A stretch of DNA of 37,224 nt from Candidatus Atribacteria bacterium (GCA_030156825.1 JASGLU010000013.1:1-37224); one strand, 5' to 3'; positions 23,935-34,369 are shown, counted from the stretch's first letter. Program-made: numbers and translations. Notes: generated from the letters alone by a model not told the origin.

Positions 23935-23965
23935 TATAAGGGGGGTCTTTCTCCCCCCATTATTG
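23935..23965. terminator. G6/C6 hairpin at the end of the exported-protein operon
   Basis: TTATAAGGGGGG and CCCCCCATTAT flank a short TCTTTCT loop and overlap the stop of the minus-strand gene at 23960. It is the end of the leftward three-gene operon and resembles the hairpin at 12568 in stem and loop (both contain GTCTTTC). Confidence 0.55.
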
Positions 23966-25474
23966 CTCTAATAAAAGGACTCCGCTGAAGAGAGGAAGCA
24001 GCCACTCTTGAGCTGCAGGATACTGGTCGGCTGGTAAAACTACTATTAAAAGCAGGGAAGTCCCAGGATAAGTGGTAACCAGGGTGGCATATTTTAGCTG
24101 GTTTTCGGGGTTGGTGGAAGAGTAAAGAGCAGTTTTTCCCCATCCTCCCTGAGCCTGGATGGTGCTTTCTCCGTGAAAAGTTTTGTCTTGAGCTATCTGG
24201 GTTGCCATGTTTTTTACCGCTTGTTCAGAACCCAGGTTGAGAATAACCAATTCTCCTTGATTAGGGGTTTGATAGACTGCTCCATTTTCCAGGGATTGGC
24301 TCAATACGGTATTGGGGGGAAGAGGAATGGTAAATTTACCCTGAGGATCGATAAAATTAGAAGAGGTATCTTCTTCCACCAGGGGGAGGCCTCCTTCTAA
24401 GGAAGGTAAAGAACCAGTAGCGGGAGCAGGAGCCGAGCTGGCTGTTCCTGCTTGGGTTTGAACGGTAGTGGTCTGGATTATTTGTTGGAATTTGACTTCC
24501 AGGGACTGAAAGTCTTCCGATAAACAGTCAAACAAAAGGGAATAGGCCTGGTTACCGAGAATTACAAAATAGGTTCTACCTCGAAGCTGGTTTGGATTCC
24601 CATAAGGGGTAAATAGAAAATCGTACTGGAGAGCAGGTTTGGTAGCTATAGTAGCTTCCTGGGTTTGGAGAGGAGTGAGGCTTTGAAAGGATTGACGGGC
24701 GTTGTCTTCGCTTATTTTCAAATATTCAGAGAGAGTGACGGGATGGGTAAGTTTCTCCCGAATGAAGAAAAACTCAGCTACAGGGACCCCCTGCTCATTG
24801 GGCAAAAGGTAATACCCTATAACTCCCTCTTCAGTGGGATTCTGAGAAATCCATTCTGGAGGGACCTGAACCGATAGTTTTTCCTTTTCCCCTTCGGCAG
24901 CGGATGTAGGAGGAGCGAGAGTACCACCGGCTGAAGGCGGGGTTGCGGTGGGGGTCACCTCGGCCAAATCTGGGGCGGCCTGCTCAACAGTTATTCCCTG
25001 AACTACTTTAGAAAACTCCTTTTCCAGATCCGCAAACAAATCCTCAAAGGTGAAAAAATCTAAGGTATAAACTTCTTGTTCCAGCTTTACAAAGTATATT
25101 TGTTCCCGGTATCGTTCCTCTTCCTGGGTAACTAAAAGGTCGTGGCGTACCGCGGGCAAACCGGCTACCGTTAGTTCTATTTTTTCTATTATGGTAGCAT
25201 TTTCCCAGCCCTGAGCTTCTTCTTTGAGAAAGTTAAAGTAACCCTGGGTTTCTTCGGCGGAGATAAACTCTTCTTTGCTTAGAGAAAACAGGGCAATGGA
25301 GTTCCCCGACTGGTCTTTTAGTTCGAAGAAAGCGATTTCATCCTCTTCGGGGGTTCCTGGCTGCCAATTAGGTGGAACATAAACTTCTATTCCCATTCCA
25401 AAGGCAGCTACCGAGGAGAGGAAGACTACCCCTCCAATTAAGAATAAACTAACTAAGATATTTGTTCTCTTCAT
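23960..25474 (-). CDS. Exported protein with three PsbP/Mog1-like domains
   Basis: A 504-aa protein with a signal peptide (about residues 1-26). Three units of ~130 residues share a pattern: a start like IEVYVPPNWQ, LSVQVPPEWI or FTIPLPPNTV; a middle beta sheet; and an end with a repeated YTLDFFTFEDLFADLEKEF or YSLLFDCLSEDFQSLEVKF segment before a closing helix. Linkers rich in Ala, Thr, Pro and Ser separate them (about 167-195 and 345-370). The pattern fits the PsbP/Mog1/DUF1795 alpha-beta sandwich, a ligand- or protein-binding fold. The third unit is the most diverged. No catalytic motif is seen. It is cotranscribed with the CHAT gene, 24 bases upstream. Confidence 0.7.
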   Translation of the reverse strand: MKRTNILVSLFLIGGVVFLSSVAAFGMGIEVYVPPNWQPGTPEEDEIAFFELKDQSGNSIALFSLSKEEFISAEETQGYFNFLKEEAQGWENATIIEKIELTVAGLPAVRHDLLVTQEEERYREQIYFVKLEQEVYTLDFFTFEDLFADLEKEFSKVVQGITVEQAAPDLAEVTPTATPPSAGGTLAPPTSAAEGEKEKLSVQVPPEWISQNPTEEGVIGYYLLPNEQGVPVAEFFFIREKLTHPVTLSEYLKISEDNARQSFQSLTPLQTQEATIATKPALQYDFLFTPYGNPNQLRGRTYFVILGNQAYSLLFDCLSEDFQSLEVKFQQIIQTTTVQTQAGTASSAPAPATGSLPSLEGGLPLVEEDTSSNFIDPQGKFTIPLPPNTVLSQSLENGAVYQTPNQGELVILNLGSEQAVKNMATQIAQDKTFHGESTIQAQGGWGKTALYSSTNPENQLKYATLVTTYPGTSLLLIVVLPADQYPAAQEWLLPLFSGVLLLEQ

Positions 25475-25498
25475 GATTTTAAATCCCCCTTTTTTAAC

Positions 25499-28400
25499 TT
25501 ATTTTTCACTTCCCTGGATGACGAATCCAGCCCAAAAAACTGGGTGAGGGTAACGCTGGGCCAGTTCTCTTTGGGCTTTTTGCATGGCTTCAGCCTTGCT
25601 TTGCCCGGCTAACCAATGTTGGTAAAAAGCAACAAAAAGCTCCATGGTGGAGCGGTCAAAAACACTCCACAAACTGGCTATTAAGGTGGGTGTCCCCGCA
25701 TAAAAAAAGGAACGGGTAAAACCTACCAAACCTTCGGTAGGACTATACTTTCCTAAGGCGGTTTGACAAGCACTTAAAACCACGCACTGGGCAGATAAGG
25801 GGAGGCTAAATACCTCCGAAGCTAACACTACTCCATCGTGCATTTGGTCCTCCGCCAGAGCAATGGAGCTCAGAAGAGGGCGGGTCTCGTCGGCAACCGC
25901 GTGGGTAGAAAGATGAACTATATCAAAACCAGCGGCTTTTCGGTATAGCTGAGTTTCAGTAGCCTCCTTTCCCAAGTAAATTTCCTTTCTTTCAAACAAC
26001 TTAGCAATCTCTTTTACCTCTAATTCAGAAGCGGGAAGAGGGGGGAGAGATTGCTTGGAAAAAGCTGGATTTCCAAACCCGATAAAGGTTTTAGGCTCGG
26101 TTTCCCCTTTGGTTAAAGAAAAAAAGTAAGTGTTTATCGAAGGAGCATAGGAAAAAATGTATTCTTCCACCAAGTAGTGGTCTTCCTTCCATAAAGCTTG
26201 GAAGGGAAGGTAACAGAGGCTATAGTGAGGTACAATTACTATGAATTTTTTGTTACCAAGGTAGGGCTCAAGCGGTAAAAAGATTTGGGAGGCAATATTT
26301 TCCAGTTTGGCGTAAGGTATCGGAGCTTTGTCGTCTGAAATGAGGTGGTAGACCTCGATTATATTTTCCTCCAGTAGTTTCCGGTTTATTGGGAGCGATA
26401 CCCCCTGAAGAGAGGAGGAGGTAAGCAGAAATACCAATAACTCATCTTCTAACAGGTAGTAATCTACTATTACGGTATCCCCAGCAATTGATTTTTGGAT
26501 TTCTGCTATTGCCTTCGGTTTCACTGTTACCAGAGAGGTGATTTCAGGAGACACCGAGTTTAAACTGTCGATCAAGTTTTCCAGCTCTTTTTCAGTTTCC
26601 TCCAATTTATTTTCTAATTGTTTGACCAAAAGCGGGTTAACTGATGCTGGAGGTTGGTTTTGTAAGATGCTTTTCTTCTGGAGTAGGAACTCTCGCTCTT
26701 TTTTAAGGTCAGAGATCAGTTGCAGTAATTCCTGATGTTTGGGTTTCACCGAGATAGTCTTGCCTGTTACCACGTCCAAAAAGCTTCTGGCTTTTAGTCG
26801 CTCAGAGTATTGAAGAGCTTCTTTAATTCGTCCTTCCTCAAATAGGGCCTCGATTAAAAAATCGTAAACCGACAAGTTTTCTTCCGAAAAAGCGATCCGG
26901 TCTTTGATGGTCTGAAATTGACTTCGGTTTGCCTCCAGAATGTCGACCGAATTTTCCCAGTAAGAGATAGCGATTGCTTCCTCTCCCAATTGGAGATAGG
27001 TTTTCCCTAAACCTAAAAGAGAGTAGAAAAGAAGGGCTGAATTTTCTATTTTTTGAGCATTATCCCGGGCTTGGGAAAAAAGGGTTTGGGCTTTGGGCAC
27101 CTCTCCTTGTTCCAGCGCAACATTGGCTAAATTGGCCTGGACTAAAGCAATGCCAGACAGGTTTTCTCTTTTTTGGTAAATCTCCAAAGCCAGCCCAAAA
27201 CTCTCCTGTGCCAGGGGTAGCTCTCCCAGAAGCAAGTTAATATTTCCTATATTATTCAATACATCAGCCACTTTTAACTCCAGGTTTAATCTTTCAAATT
27301 GAGCCAGGGCTTTTTGGTAGGATTGCAGGGCTAACTGGTAATTTCCTTTTCTTTGGGCTAAAACACCTAAGTTAGCCCAAATATTGGCTTCAGCTTCCTC
27401 ATCTTTTTCTTTTTGGGCTACTTCCAGAGCCTCTTCCAGATAGTTTTCGGCCTCGTTCAATTGCCCCAGGGTTAAAGAGACCACTCCCAGGTTAATCAAC
27501 AACCCCAAATCTCTGGGCAGTCTCTCTTTTTTTTGAAAATCTACTGCTTTTTCTAAAGTAGCTTTGGCTTGACCCCAGTCACCAAATTGGGAGAGGACGA
27601 GGGATAGGTTGTTCCATACCCAGAGTTTTTGGTAGGTGAGGTGCATGCTCTCGGCTAATTTCTGGCATTGCATCAAATTTTGCCAGCCTTCCCCGGGAGA
27701 AAAGAGATAATCGGTTAGCAACTCAGCTTGATTGAGAAGAACTATAAATTCAAGCCATCGTGCCTGGCGCTCTCGAGCCCAGGATAGAGCTTCTTCGAAT
27801 TTTGCTTGAGCTTCCGGGATATGACCTTGTTTAAGCTCTATCCAGGATAGGTGGTTGAGAGCTAATCCAATAATTTCAGGATTTTCAAGCTGTTCTTGCC
27901 AGCTTAATACTTTTTGGAAATGGTTTTTGGCTTCCTGGTATTTTCTGGCTTGAAGAGCCAAAATTCCTTGGTTGAGAAAGAAAACCGCTTTTCCATACGG
28001 GCTATCCACCGCTTGGGATAGACAGTCCAACTCTTCCAGAAGGGGAGGGACTTCTTCCCACAAGTTGAGGTTTTCAATTACCCGGATTATGACTTCTAAA
28101 GAGTGAATCATCCCCTCTTTTTCCCCGATTTTCTGAAATAATTGGTAAGACTCCTGGGCTTTAGGTAGGGCTTCTTCGCTCTTTCCCCTGCGAGATAGAG
28201 CCCAGGCGTCAAAAAGGAGGGCCCTGGCTTCTCGCTGCTGGTCACCCTCAAGCAGAGCAGTTAAATAAAGAAGGCGTGATTTTTGGCTTACCTCAGTGTA
28301 CTCTCCTTGCCAGAGGAGCTGGTTCATTTCCTGGTTAACTGATTGGGAAATGGTTTCCCGCTCTGCGGGAGTAAGGGAGAGGATATGGCGCAGCAAAAGA

Positions 28401-28516
28401 TAGCCATCTTCCTCTTCAAAAGGAAAGTCAAGCGCACTAATTTCTTCTGCTAATCCGGGGTAAATTACCCCGAAAAGCAAACTAACTATTAATGCCAGTG
28501 CCAGATATCGGTTCAT
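25499..28516 (-). CDS. Exported TPR-CHAT protein (caspase-like peptidase candidate)
   Basis: A 1005-aa protein with a signal peptide (about residues 1-23, ending GLAEE), a long array of a dozen or so TPRs (about 80-540; for example ANIWANLGVLAQRKGNYQLA and ADVLNNIGNINLLLGELPLA), a coiled-coil linker (about 575-650), and a C-terminal CHAT domain (about 690-1003). The CHAT dyad is present: His at ~872 in VHLSTHAVAD and Cys at ~917 in VVLSACQTALG, with TEGLVGFTRSFFYAG and LIASLWSV after it. CHAT domains are caspase-related cysteine peptidases. The signal peptide puts this one outside the cytoplasm. It sits between two genes for exported PsbP-like proteins in one operon; those could be partners or substrates (inference). 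Confidence 0.88.
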   Translation of the reverse strand: MNRYLALALIVSLLFGVIYPGLAEEISALDFPFEEEDGYLLLRHILSLTPAERETISQSVNQEMNQLLWQGEYTEVSQKSRLLYLTALLEGDQQREARALLFDAWALSRRGKSEEALPKAQESYQLFQKIGEKEGMIHSLEVIIRVIENLNLWEEVPPLLEELDCLSQAVDSPYGKAVFFLNQGILALQARKYQEAKNHFQKVLSWQEQLENPEIIGLALNHLSWIELKQGHIPEAQAKFEEALSWARERQARWLEFIVLLNQAELLTDYLFSPGEGWQNLMQCQKLAESMHLTYQKLWVWNNLSLVLSQFGDWGQAKATLEKAVDFQKKERLPRDLGLLINLGVVSLTLGQLNEAENYLEEALEVAQKEKDEEAEANIWANLGVLAQRKGNYQLALQSYQKALAQFERLNLELKVADVLNNIGNINLLLGELPLAQESFGLALEIYQKRENLSGIALVQANLANVALEQGEVPKAQTLFSQARDNAQKIENSALLFYSLLGLGKTYLQLGEEAIAISYWENSVDILEANRSQFQTIKDRIAFSEENLSVYDFLIEALFEEGRIKEALQYSERLKARSFLDVVTGKTISVKPKHQELLQLISDLKKEREFLLQKKSILQNQPPASVNPLLVKQLENKLEETEKELENLIDSLNSVSPEITSLVTVKPKAIAEIQKSIAGDTVIVDYYLLEDELLVFLLTSSSLQGVSLPINRKLLEENIIEVYHLISDDKAPIPYAKLENIASQIFLPLEPYLGNKKFIVIVPHYSLCYLPFQALWKEDHYLVEEYIFSYAPSINTYFFSLTKGETEPKTFIGFGNPAFSKQSLPPLPASELEVKEIAKLFERKEIYLGKEATETQLYRKAAGFDIVHLSTHAVADETRPLLSSIALAEDQMHDGVVLASEVFSLPLSAQCVVLSACQTALGKYSPTEGLVGFTRSFFYAGTPTLIASLWSVFDRSTMELFVAFYQHWLAGQSKAEAMQKAQRELAQRYPHPVFWAGFVIQGSEK

Positions 28517-28522
28517 GTTGGG

Positions 28523-29479
28523 TTAAAAGTTATAGAGCCCCAGCGATTTTTCGTAAGAAGCAACCATCCGGTTAAAGAATTGCTGGAGAGTTTCAGAGAA
28601 ATTATCCTTGGGGGCTTGACAAAGTATTACCCCTCCTATCCCAAAAGGGATAGAGGCGGCCGGAACGTAATGAGCATAACTCATAAGCTGGAAAGTTAAA
28701 GGCACCCCCACAAAAGTTCCCTGGAGAATAGTTTGGCCTCGGGTCAGGTTAATGCCTATCTGAAGTGCTTTGGGGTCCTCCTTGAAATCTTGCTTTATAA
28801 CCTGGAGGTCGGGAACATTGTTGCTGAGTAAGTATATGATTTGTGCGGCCAGGTCTCGGGCTGAAGAAAAATCGCCAGTTATCCCGGGCATCAGGGTAAG
28901 GGAGGTGTTTTTCTGGGGGTCCGGGGAGAAGACCACCGTTTTGTTGTAGATATCTAAGTTGACCTGCCAGTTAGCCGGATATTCAATATAACCTTCGATC
29001 AACTGGTTGTATCCGAAAGCTTCGAGTAAATTGTATTTTTTCCAAACTACCGGGATGTTTTGGCCTTCAGGAGGCTGGAGCGGGCTTTGGGGTGCAGTGG
29101 GTGGAACTAACAAGGGGTTGGTAGGAGATGGAGGTGGTGCGGTTGTGCTGGGAGCAGGTTGAGTTTGAGTTGGAGGAGCATCCAGGGAGGGGAGTTGTGT
29201 TTGGACGACTCCTGGTTGGTTAAACTGGGGCAGGGTATCCGTCCTTTTAGGCGAAGAAGAAGAACCGGGTAGGGAAATAGTATCTCCGTTTTTGAGGGGG
29301 AGAGAGAAAGGTTCGTCCTGGGTTAGAGCCTCCCCGCCTCGGGTTGGGCCAGAAAAAGCCTTGCCGGCTGAAGAAAAACCGGCAATCCGAAAAGAAAAAG
29401 ATTGAGCATAAGCTGAGTTTATGGTGAGTAGGAACAGTAAAATAAAGGTTAAGCTGAGGGAGAGCAATTTTTTGACCAT
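28523..29479 (-). CDS. Exported protein with proline-rich linker and C-terminal PsbP-like domain
   Basis: I start at the ATG 29479, nine bases after GGAG; a TTG at 29488 is the longer alternative. The ~318-aa protein has a signal peptide (ending AYAQS), a low-complexity region rich in Pro, Thr, Ser and Gln (about residues 30-145), and a folded domain from ~150 with YIEYPANWQVNLD, KTVVFSPDPQKNTSLTLM and LQQFFNRMVASYEKSL. The last part recalls the PsbP/Mog1-like fold of its neighbour. It is the first gene of the leftward operon that includes the CHAT protein, six bases upstream of it. Function is unknown. Confidence 0.7.
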   Translation of the reverse strand: MVKKLLSLSLTFILLFLLTINSAYAQSFSFRIAGFSSAGKAFSGPTRGGEALTQDEPFSLPLKNGDTISLPGSSSSPKRTDTLPQFNQPGVVQTQLPSLDAPPTQTQPAPSTTAPPPSPTNPLLVPPTAPQSPLQPPEGQNIPVVWKKYNLLEAFGYNQLIEGYIEYPANWQVNLDIYNKTVVFSPDPQKNTSLTLMPGITGDFSSARDLAAQIIYLLSNNVPDLQVIKQDFKEDPKALQIGINLTRGQTILQGTFVGVPLTFQLMSYAHYVPAASIPFGIGGVILCQAPKDNFSETLQQFFNRMVASYEKSLGLYNF

Positions 29480-29670
29480 GATTTTCAACTCCTTCAGGTT
29501 TTAGTGGGGGCAAAAAACCTGCTCCTTATTTTAATTTTACCACTAAAGGACGAGAAAGGAAATTTTCACACTTATTGACGTAGAACCAAATTAACGAAAT
29601 AGTTACATTATTTATCAAAGTGGGTTAAAATAAAGTCTAAGTTTGTTTTCTGAAGGAGGAGAGAATAACT

Positions 29671-30321
29671 ATGAAGAGGTTTACTCATAAGTTTAATTTT
29701 GGAATTTTGGTTTTGGGTTTGGGTTGTACCTTTTTTTTAAATCTGATTTTATTTACTCCTTTAGCTGAAGGTGCGAACTCTTCCCTGGGTCCTCTTTCCC
29801 CTTCTTTGTTTGAGGGGAAGGAGGGTGTTTGGCAGGGAAATTTACTTGATGACGCTTATCTCCTCACCAATACCGAGGATTCCGGCTCGATACAATATTT
29901 TTATGTCGAACGGGACCAGGGAGAATATGCCATTTCGGTTTCGGTTAAAGTCGAAGGAGAAAGTTCTGGACTACAAGGGGCAGGAATTCTTTATGCCTTT
30001 CATTCAGAAATTCCTTCTTACTACGCTTTTACCCTTGATGCTGAAGGTACTGTGTCACTATCTCGGAGAGATGAGGAGGGTTTTAATCAGTTGCTGGGGA
30101 TGGGCACTGAGACGGTGAGAAAAGGTAATTTTAATACTCTTACTATTATTGAGCAAGGAGCGGCTTTCCATCTTCTGGTGAATGGGGAAGAAATTGCCAG
30201 TGTGGAAAGTAGTCGGACCGGAGAAGGAGCGGTGGGAATTGTTGCTCTGGGTACAGGCAGCTTTACTTTTTCTGAGTTTAAGTTGAACCAGAGTACCGGT
30301 CGCCTGCCCTCTCTTGATTAA
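29671..30321 (+). CDS. Exported protein with concanavalin-A-like (LamG/DUF1080-type) domain
   Basis: The 216-aa protein has a signal peptide (about residues 1-32, ending LAEGA) and one ~180-residue beta-sandwich: EGVWQGNLLDDAYLLTN, YAISVSVKVEG, GAGILYAFHSEIPSYYAFTL, FHLLVNGEEIASV and VGIVALGTGSFTFSEFKL. This is the strand order of DUF1080/laminin-G-like domains, which bind or cleave glycans. No catalytic residues are obvious, so binding is more likely. AAGGAGGAG precedes the ATG; TAAAAT at 29626 with a poor -35 is the best promoter seen. It is transcribed away from the CHAT operon and ends at a terminator. Confidence 0.75.
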   Translation: MKRFTHKFNFGILVLGLGCTFFLNLILFTPLAEGANSSLGPLSPSLFEGKEGVWQGNLLDDAYLLTNTEDSGSIQYFYVERDQGEYAISVSVKVEGESSGLQGAGILYAFHSEIPSYYAFTLDAEGTVSLSRRDEEGFNQLLGMGTETVRKGNFNTLTIIEQGAAFHLLVNGEEIASVESSRTGEGAVGIVALGTGSFTFSEFKLNQSTGRLPSLD

Positions 30322-34052: not shown

Positions 34053-34103
34053 TACCCCCCTAATAACCCCTTTCTTTTTCGGCAGTGCAATGGCCCTCTG
34101 TTT

Positions 34104-34126
34104 GTCATTCCTGAACGTCTTTATCG
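34104..34126. repeat. Truncated GTCATTCC-type repeat cut by copy C
   Basis: GTCATTCCTGAACGTCTTTA then TCG matches the first two thirds of the copy at 34285 and stops exactly where the modular repeat copy C begins (34128). This suggests that the modular repeat was inserted into an older copy. Confidence 0.5.
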
Positions 34127-34127
34127 A

Positions 34128-34260
34128 CTATAATGGGGGCGCTGCCCCCCTTATCAACCCCGACAATAGGGGGAAACCCCCTATAACCCCCGAAAAAAAA
34201 CCAAACAAATCAAATATAAAAAGACAAATATAACCGAGGAAGAACGACGCTTCCTCGGTA
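34128..34260. repeat. Modular palindromic repeat, copy C
   Basis: The first 27 bases equal 9522-9548. The second hairpin (AATAGGGGG-AAA-CCCCCTATAA) and CCCCCGAAAA at 34187-34196 match copies A and B. The CAGACAGCC module is missing and replaced by A-rich sequence; GACAAATATAACCGAGGAAG and its partner CTTCCTCGGT close the unit. Confidence 0.8.
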
Positions 34261-34282
34261 CACGGAGGAAAAGCCTCCGTGT
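34260..34282. terminator. Perfect ACACGGAGG/CCTCCGTGT hairpin
   Basis: A 9-bp perfect stem with loop AAAAG directly follows the CCGAGGAAG hairpin of copy C. It could act as a terminator between the leftward methylase genes and the rightward B12 operon, though no T-run follows; it may simply be another repeat module. Confidence 0.4.
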
Positions 34283-34284
34283 CC

Positions 34285-34369
34285 GTCATTCCTGAATGTA
34301 TTTATCAGGAATCTAAATTGTTTAAGGATGAAAATACCTGGATTCCCGATTAAGGATTTCGGGAATGAC
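34285..34369. repeat. Inverted pair of GTCATTCC-type repeats
   Basis: A direct copy (34285-34316, GTCATTCCTGAATGTATTTA then TCAGGAATCTA) and an inverted copy (34338-34369, CTGGATTCCCGATTAAGGAT then TTCGGGAATGAC) face each other across ~21 bases, forming a long inverted repeat. Confidence 0.65.

Follow-up and report, generated by a model that had tools for sequence, protein, structure and literature searches.

What would a CHAT-family peptidase with a TPR array act on, or answer to, outside the cytoplasm? To our knowledge, CHAT peptidases have been studied almost only intracellularly, with CRISPR, gasdermin or separase partners, and the TPR-array CHAT enzymes studied so far cut specific partners. 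The question is raised by a three-gene locus of Candidatus Atribacteria bacterium (GCA_030156825.1), which lies in a 37,224-nt stretch of DNA, here called the window, that constitutes contig C21 of a genome of 1.98 Mb in 98 contigs.

A Gene Trio Built around a TPR-CHAT Peptidase Candidate

The locus comprises three co-directional open reading frames on the minus strand: gene A (28526-29479), the CHAT gene (25499-28516) and gene B (23960-25474). Because only 6 nt separate A from CHAT and 24 nt separate CHAT from B, an operon is likely. A GC hairpin just 3′ of B (23940-23958), with a weak T tail, is a possible terminator, though the count of hairpin-type matches in the region is near the shuffled expectation. 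Background counts were taken from the window and samples of 20 contigs.

The 1,005-residue CHAT protein begins with a predicted signal peptide, followed by a helical and TPR region at about residues 100-530 (26927-28219, minus strand), in which Pfam TPR_12 matches fall in six stretches and are strongest at residues 300-525. The clan-CD peptidase domain occupies residues 738-1003 (25508-26305, minus strand) and matches PF12770 with an E value of 8.5e-65 over profile positions 4-289 of 289. The putative catalytic residues, His872 (codon at 25901-25903) and Cys917 (25766-25768), are invariant in the 8/8 aligned orthologues and are also kept in four relatives outside Atribacterota. The first-pass annotation of this DNA had described the protein in the same terms, with a signal peptide, about a dozen TPRs (in line with the six TPR_12 stretches) and exactly this His/Cys pair, and the loss of the dyad in close homologues that it named as a refutation is not seen in the eight aligned.

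This plan resembles that of Csx29 from the type III-E CRISPR Craspase, which likewise joins a TPR array to a CHAT domain with a His/Cys dyad (H615/C658) and has a neighbor-encoded partner, Csx30, that it cuts once, in a flexible loop, with both His and Cys being needed (PMC10028731). A profile of the C-terminal half of the CHAT protein matches solved TPR-CHAT/Csx29 PDB chains, though the sequence similarity to Csx29 is weak (E values of 1e-4 to 1e-9). However, Csx29 is cytoplasmic and gated by RNA through Cas7-11, whereas the CHAT protein here is predicted to be exported and has PsbP-fold partners and no CRISPR. Indeed, the pairing of Cas7-11 (gRAMP) with a CRISPR array that marks Craspase is absent from this locus: the window contains no CRISPR-like array, no Cas7-11-like gene occurs among the window genes scanned, and PADLOC returned no CRISPR-type match for the operon proteins, only a generic TPR match and a marginal LmuB match. 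With no array and no specific PADLOC match, we reject the idea that the window proteins form a CRISPR or defense system. No toxin, pore-former or defense gene was recognized among the neighbors scanned either, and the annotation's picture of a three-gene unit without a CRISPR or obvious toxin partner holds for the window and these neighbors. A 27-nt direct repeat occurs twice, imperfectly, at 34099-34306; the two copies lie 181 nt apart and form no array.

The Flanking Genes Encode PsbP/Mog1-Fold Proteins with Predicted Export

Gene A encodes a predicted exported protein of 318 residues. Its start codon is, as first annotated, the ATG at position 29479, which has AAGGAG ahead of it, and not the TTG at 29488. 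Residues 24-140 (29060-29410, minus strand) form a disordered linker rich in Pro, Thr and Ser (pLDDT mostly below 57) that contains the motif LPSLD at about 29180-29194, and residues 141-315 (28535-29059) form a single globular domain modeled by AlphaFold2 with pLDDT values mostly of 88-96. Foldseek searches against the PDB place this domain in the PsbP/Mog1 fold: CyanoP is matched with an E value of 1.2e-4 and a probability of 1.00, the best solved matches include cyanobacterial PsbP, a Jonesia protein, SciW, DcrB, Mog1 and LpqN, and MTC28 ranks after these, at 6e-3. No Pfam profile matches A up to an E value of 1. The A family is confined to Atribacterota among the 386 genomes searched. In two genomes (L079:11253-13547 and L080:11028-13358), the A protein has grown to about 770 residues through an additional N-terminal PsbP_2 domain, with a Cys4 zinc-ribbon motif between the domains of this exported protein.

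Gene B encodes a predicted exported protein of 504 residues with three PsbP-like domains on low-complexity linkers. Domain 1 (residues 28-160; 24995-25393, minus strand) is the only one detected by Pfam PsbP_2, right at the cutoff (27.0 bits; cutoff, 27), and is modeled at low confidence. Domain 2 (residues 198-340; 24455-24883) is modeled with pLDDT mostly over 90 and is homologous to domain 1 (29%, E value of 1e-16), and domain 3 (residues 372-500; 23975-24361) is visible in the model, as are the other two, and matches by BLASTP the C termini of caspase proteins of 1,224 residues, described below. One B linker carries the motif LPSLEGGLPLV (24377-24409). Searched whole and not split by domain, B matches EagT6, CyanoP and PA94 with Foldseek E values of about 1e-6; its other matches include LpqN and the immunity proteins TplEi/Tli4, and the EagT6/SciW chaperones are found among the matches of both A and B. 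Since orthologous B proteins have two domains, the three-domain form is particular to this window. The models and Foldseek bear out the earlier proposal that both neighbors have PsbP/Mog1-fold domains, three of them in B, the first weakly modeled, and a simple rule predicts the export of both.

The fold common to the A and B domains is that of the PsbP/Mog1/DcrB/LpqN superfamily (CyanoP, LpqN, MTC28, EagT6/SciW, Tli4/TplEi), many members of which are exported; A differs in having no sequence-level family assignment. BLASTP and hhalign gave no signal between A and the B domains, and we therefore reject A as a sequence homologue of the B domains; the likeness is one of fold alone. We know of no member of this superfamily that works with a CHAT peptidase, and the literature searched holds nothing on CHAT together with PsbP.

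A simple hydrophobicity rule detects signal-peptide-like N termini in A, CHAT, B and their orthologues, from which a location outside the cytoplasm is predicted. A periplasmic location is plausible given that an LptF/LptG-family permease is encoded in the window; the periplasm, the outer membrane and the outside are indistinguishable on this sequence evidence.

The Trio Recurs in Atribacterota

CHAT orthologues are found in 9 of 50 Atribacterota genomes and are absent from 40; counting one genome with more distant CHAT proteins, they represent 8 genera. The aligned orthologues share 33-44% overall identity with the CHAT protein of the window. Gene A lies directly upstream of CHAT at 9/9 loci (in G022 the contig covers only the end of A), and gene B lies directly downstream at all seven loci whose contigs continue. 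No other window gene is common to the CHAT loci at E values below 1e-8. Thus, the order A-CHAT-B, whose lack of conservation the first-pass annotation had named as one refutation, is conserved, in unrelated flanks. It is likely that the three genes form one functional unit.

Not all copies follow this pattern. G048, the genome with more distant CHAT proteins, encodes two of them and has no A or B matches. In five genomes, all of a single genus, A copies of the CHAT branch persist with no CHAT gene next to them (L072:4831-5622, L240, L241, L242 and L243), and in G013 (L081) A lies beside a B protein that has gained a TPR array, without CHAT. These cases indicate that A and B are of some use independently of this peptidase. 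In G004 (L078:7212-11713), two open frames stand in place of one for both CHAT and B, and the N terminus of A is shortened, reflecting either locus decay or assembly errors. A divergently transcribed gene for an exported LamG-like protein (29671-30321, plus strand) was considered as a fourth member and rejected, as its only good homologue (G007) is found apart from the CHAT operon, on a different contig.

A Caspase-Type Peptidase Has Its Own A- and B-Type Gene Neighbors

In eight genomes an A-type gene adjoins a gene for a second candidate peptidase, of about 1,224 residues, which contains a signal peptide, TPRs, WD40 repeats, Big_7, a caspase (C14) domain and, at its C terminus, a homologue of B domain 3. 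A B-type gene occupies the other flank at the four of four loci that are long enough; the B-type proteins of caspase loci contain DUF4919, with or without ankyrin repeats, followed by PsbP domains. The caspase His-Cys pair is kept wherever covered (His 6/6, Cys 7/7). In its TPRs, WD40 repeats, caspase domain and signal peptide the sister peptidase is like those prokaryotic metacaspases that bear WD40/TPR and helices at the N terminus (PMC3501461), but it adds Big_7, the fused B-type PsbP domain and the A/B-type neighbors. In a third arrangement, ankyrin/TPR proteins with PsbP domains adjoin an A-type gene. The fusion partners of B-type domains are caspase, TPR and ankyrin proteins. On one 7.8-kb contig of G024 (L074:105-7820, G024:C60), the two kinds of unit stand in tandem, in the order caspase-A′-A-CHAT-B.

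In a tree of A domains, caspase-linked and ankyrin-linked A proteins each form one clade with a bootstrap of 100. CHAT-linked A proteins lie on the other side, and the copies with no CHAT neighbor (SOLO branch) fall inside their group. Both CHAT-type and caspase-type units are present in G021, G022 and G024, so that the A subfamilies divide by partner rather than by species. We would read the caspase sister system as the same device placed on a second clan-CD enzyme, with its own A and B and with a B-type PsbP domain fused to the peptidase.

A Recurrent Motif in the Linkers

Across the A linkers of 11 family members, LPx[LIV] occurs 21 times, compared with 3.2 ± 1.7 when each linker is shuffled (maximum, 11 in 2,000 shuffles); the shuffling preserves composition and not descent, and the linkers are proline rich and come from related proteins. 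The density of a related motif, per 1,000 residues, is 2.6 in those A/B-family proteins that are exported, against 0.4 in the remaining exported proteins and 0.19 in all others. As the motif was noticed post hoc in related proteins, we regard it as a lead and not as a result. A, B and the divergent LamG-like protein of the window all contain LPSL with D or E as the next residue; in the last it forms the extreme C terminus, and the five letters, LPSLD, are the same as in the A linker, although this gene is not a conserved neighbor.

Possible Roles of the PsbP-Fold Partners

Conservation of the trio and the existence of the caspase version suggest a dedicated envelope proteolysis system. In the reading that we favor, at a probability of roughly 0.4, an envelope clan-CD peptidase would make limited cuts, with dedicated PsbP-fold partners in control; these cuts might fall in the linkers of the partners themselves. 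The TPR array would hold A and/or B outside the inner membrane, and the PsbP-fold domains would either detect a ligand or present a client protein. The CHAT domain would then make one or a few limited cuts, likeliest in the disordered, LPx[LIV]-bearing proline-rich linkers of A and B, and the cut would free the globular domain to act. By analogy, this would be the logic of Csx29 and Csx30 moved to the envelope, without an RNA trigger. We infer that the proteins lie outside the inner membrane, that they form a complex and that proteolysis is limited, and the same holds for which partner would be substrate, adaptor or inhibitor; to place the cut in the linkers of A or B is guesswork, and doubtful. 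Equally tentative is the wider picture of a two-branched Atribacterota family in which an exported, TPR-bearing CHAT or caspase peptidase is each accompanied by a matched PsbP-fold pair, LPx[LIV] serves as a docking or cutting site, and the whole would be an envelope counterpart of Craspase-like partner cleavage. We found no earlier description of such a two-branched device in the searches made.

The main competing explanation, which we consider rather unlikely yet close behind these last proposals, makes A and B regulators, PsbP-fold clamps that inhibit or activate CHAT, and assigns the true substrates to other envelope proteins. The Foldseek matches of B include TplEi/Tli4, periplasmic two-domain inhibitors of this fold that confer T6SS immunity, and EagT6/SciW chaperones are also among the fold matches; moreover, the PsbP domain of the sister system lies within the peptidase chain, as would be expected of a built-in regulator. 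However, the immunity-protein matches are low in TM-score over the whole query, and disordered, motif-bearing linkers such as those of A are seen more often in substrates or in docking partners.

It is less probable that the unit is mainly a scaffold for envelope assembly, in the manner of LpqN/MTC28, with TPRs that dock partners and a secondary part for peptidase activity. A does share its layout of signal peptide, proline-rich stretch and PsbP/Mog1 domain with the mycobacterial secreted proline-rich antigen MTC28, which is related to LpqN, and A and B occur without the peptidase in several genomes. This explanation sits poorly with a CHAT dyad that is invariant over deep divergence, and with a caspase sister that keeps its own His-Cys pair at every position covered.

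CHAT and caspase enzymes serve in bacterial cell death and defense. Such use, the resemblance of B to T6SS immunity folds and the proposal that extracellular metacaspases act on neighbors (PMC3501461) would allow a contact or cell-death system, in which the exported peptidase harms neighboring cells or its own and A and B protect or trigger. We judge this improbable, as the neighbors scanned show none of the toxin, pore-former or defense genes sought and inheritance looks old and stable, not island-like. Finally, broad peptide digestion by a secreted, nutrient-scavenging protease would suit a predicted exported CHAT protein in Atribacterota, a heterotrophic anaerobe, but is very improbable given the partner specificity of the TPR-array CHAT enzymes studied so far and since bulk digestion has no need of dedicated, co-conserved partners.

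Predicted Exported TPR-CHAT Proteins in Other Phyla

TPR-CHAT proteins of this kind extend well beyond Atribacterota. The nearest relatives of the CHAT protein outside the phylum, about 24-33% identical to it, are found in Deltaproteobacteria, Acidobacteria, Cyanobacteria and others (L092-L170), and as here they combine an exported or lipoprotein-like N terminus with TPRs and an intact CHAT motif. Among the 66 with a usable N terminus, 54 pass an export rule of the same kind, compared with 2 and 0 for control internal windows of the same proteins, from which we conclude that exported TPR-CHAT proteins are a common kind. The first-pass annotation had set the export of the CHAT protein of the window against the intracellular action of the best-known TPR-CHAT proteins, and the idea that export makes it unusual is not supported.

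These loci differ in their neighbors. No A- or B-type gene adjoins CHAT at any of 79 loci in other phyla, where, for example, DUF1318, DUF4384 or subtilase genes occur instead; with 0/79 loci positive and no A outside Atribacterota in the 386 genomes, A/B partners in other phyla are rejected. At the level of sequence, the Atribacterota unit is set apart by its pair of partners and not by export, and what is new here is the two-partner, two-peptidase arrangement. The literature searched names no substrate of an exported TPR-CHAT protein; the three-gene unit and its parallel caspase version provide a concrete list of substrate and regulator candidates, and they link the PsbP/Mog1 fold to clan-CD proteolysis.

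Some of the loci in other phyla have layouts of their own. Two Deltaproteobacteria loci (L095:3974-12619 and L102:4247-12736) encode exported proteins of about 2,800 residues that end in TPR-CHAT and stand behind a small gene, which in L102 is of the DUF1318 type. An Aminicenantes genome (L107:6354-7610) has a subtilase gene immediately 5′ of the gene for an exported TPR-CHAT protein.
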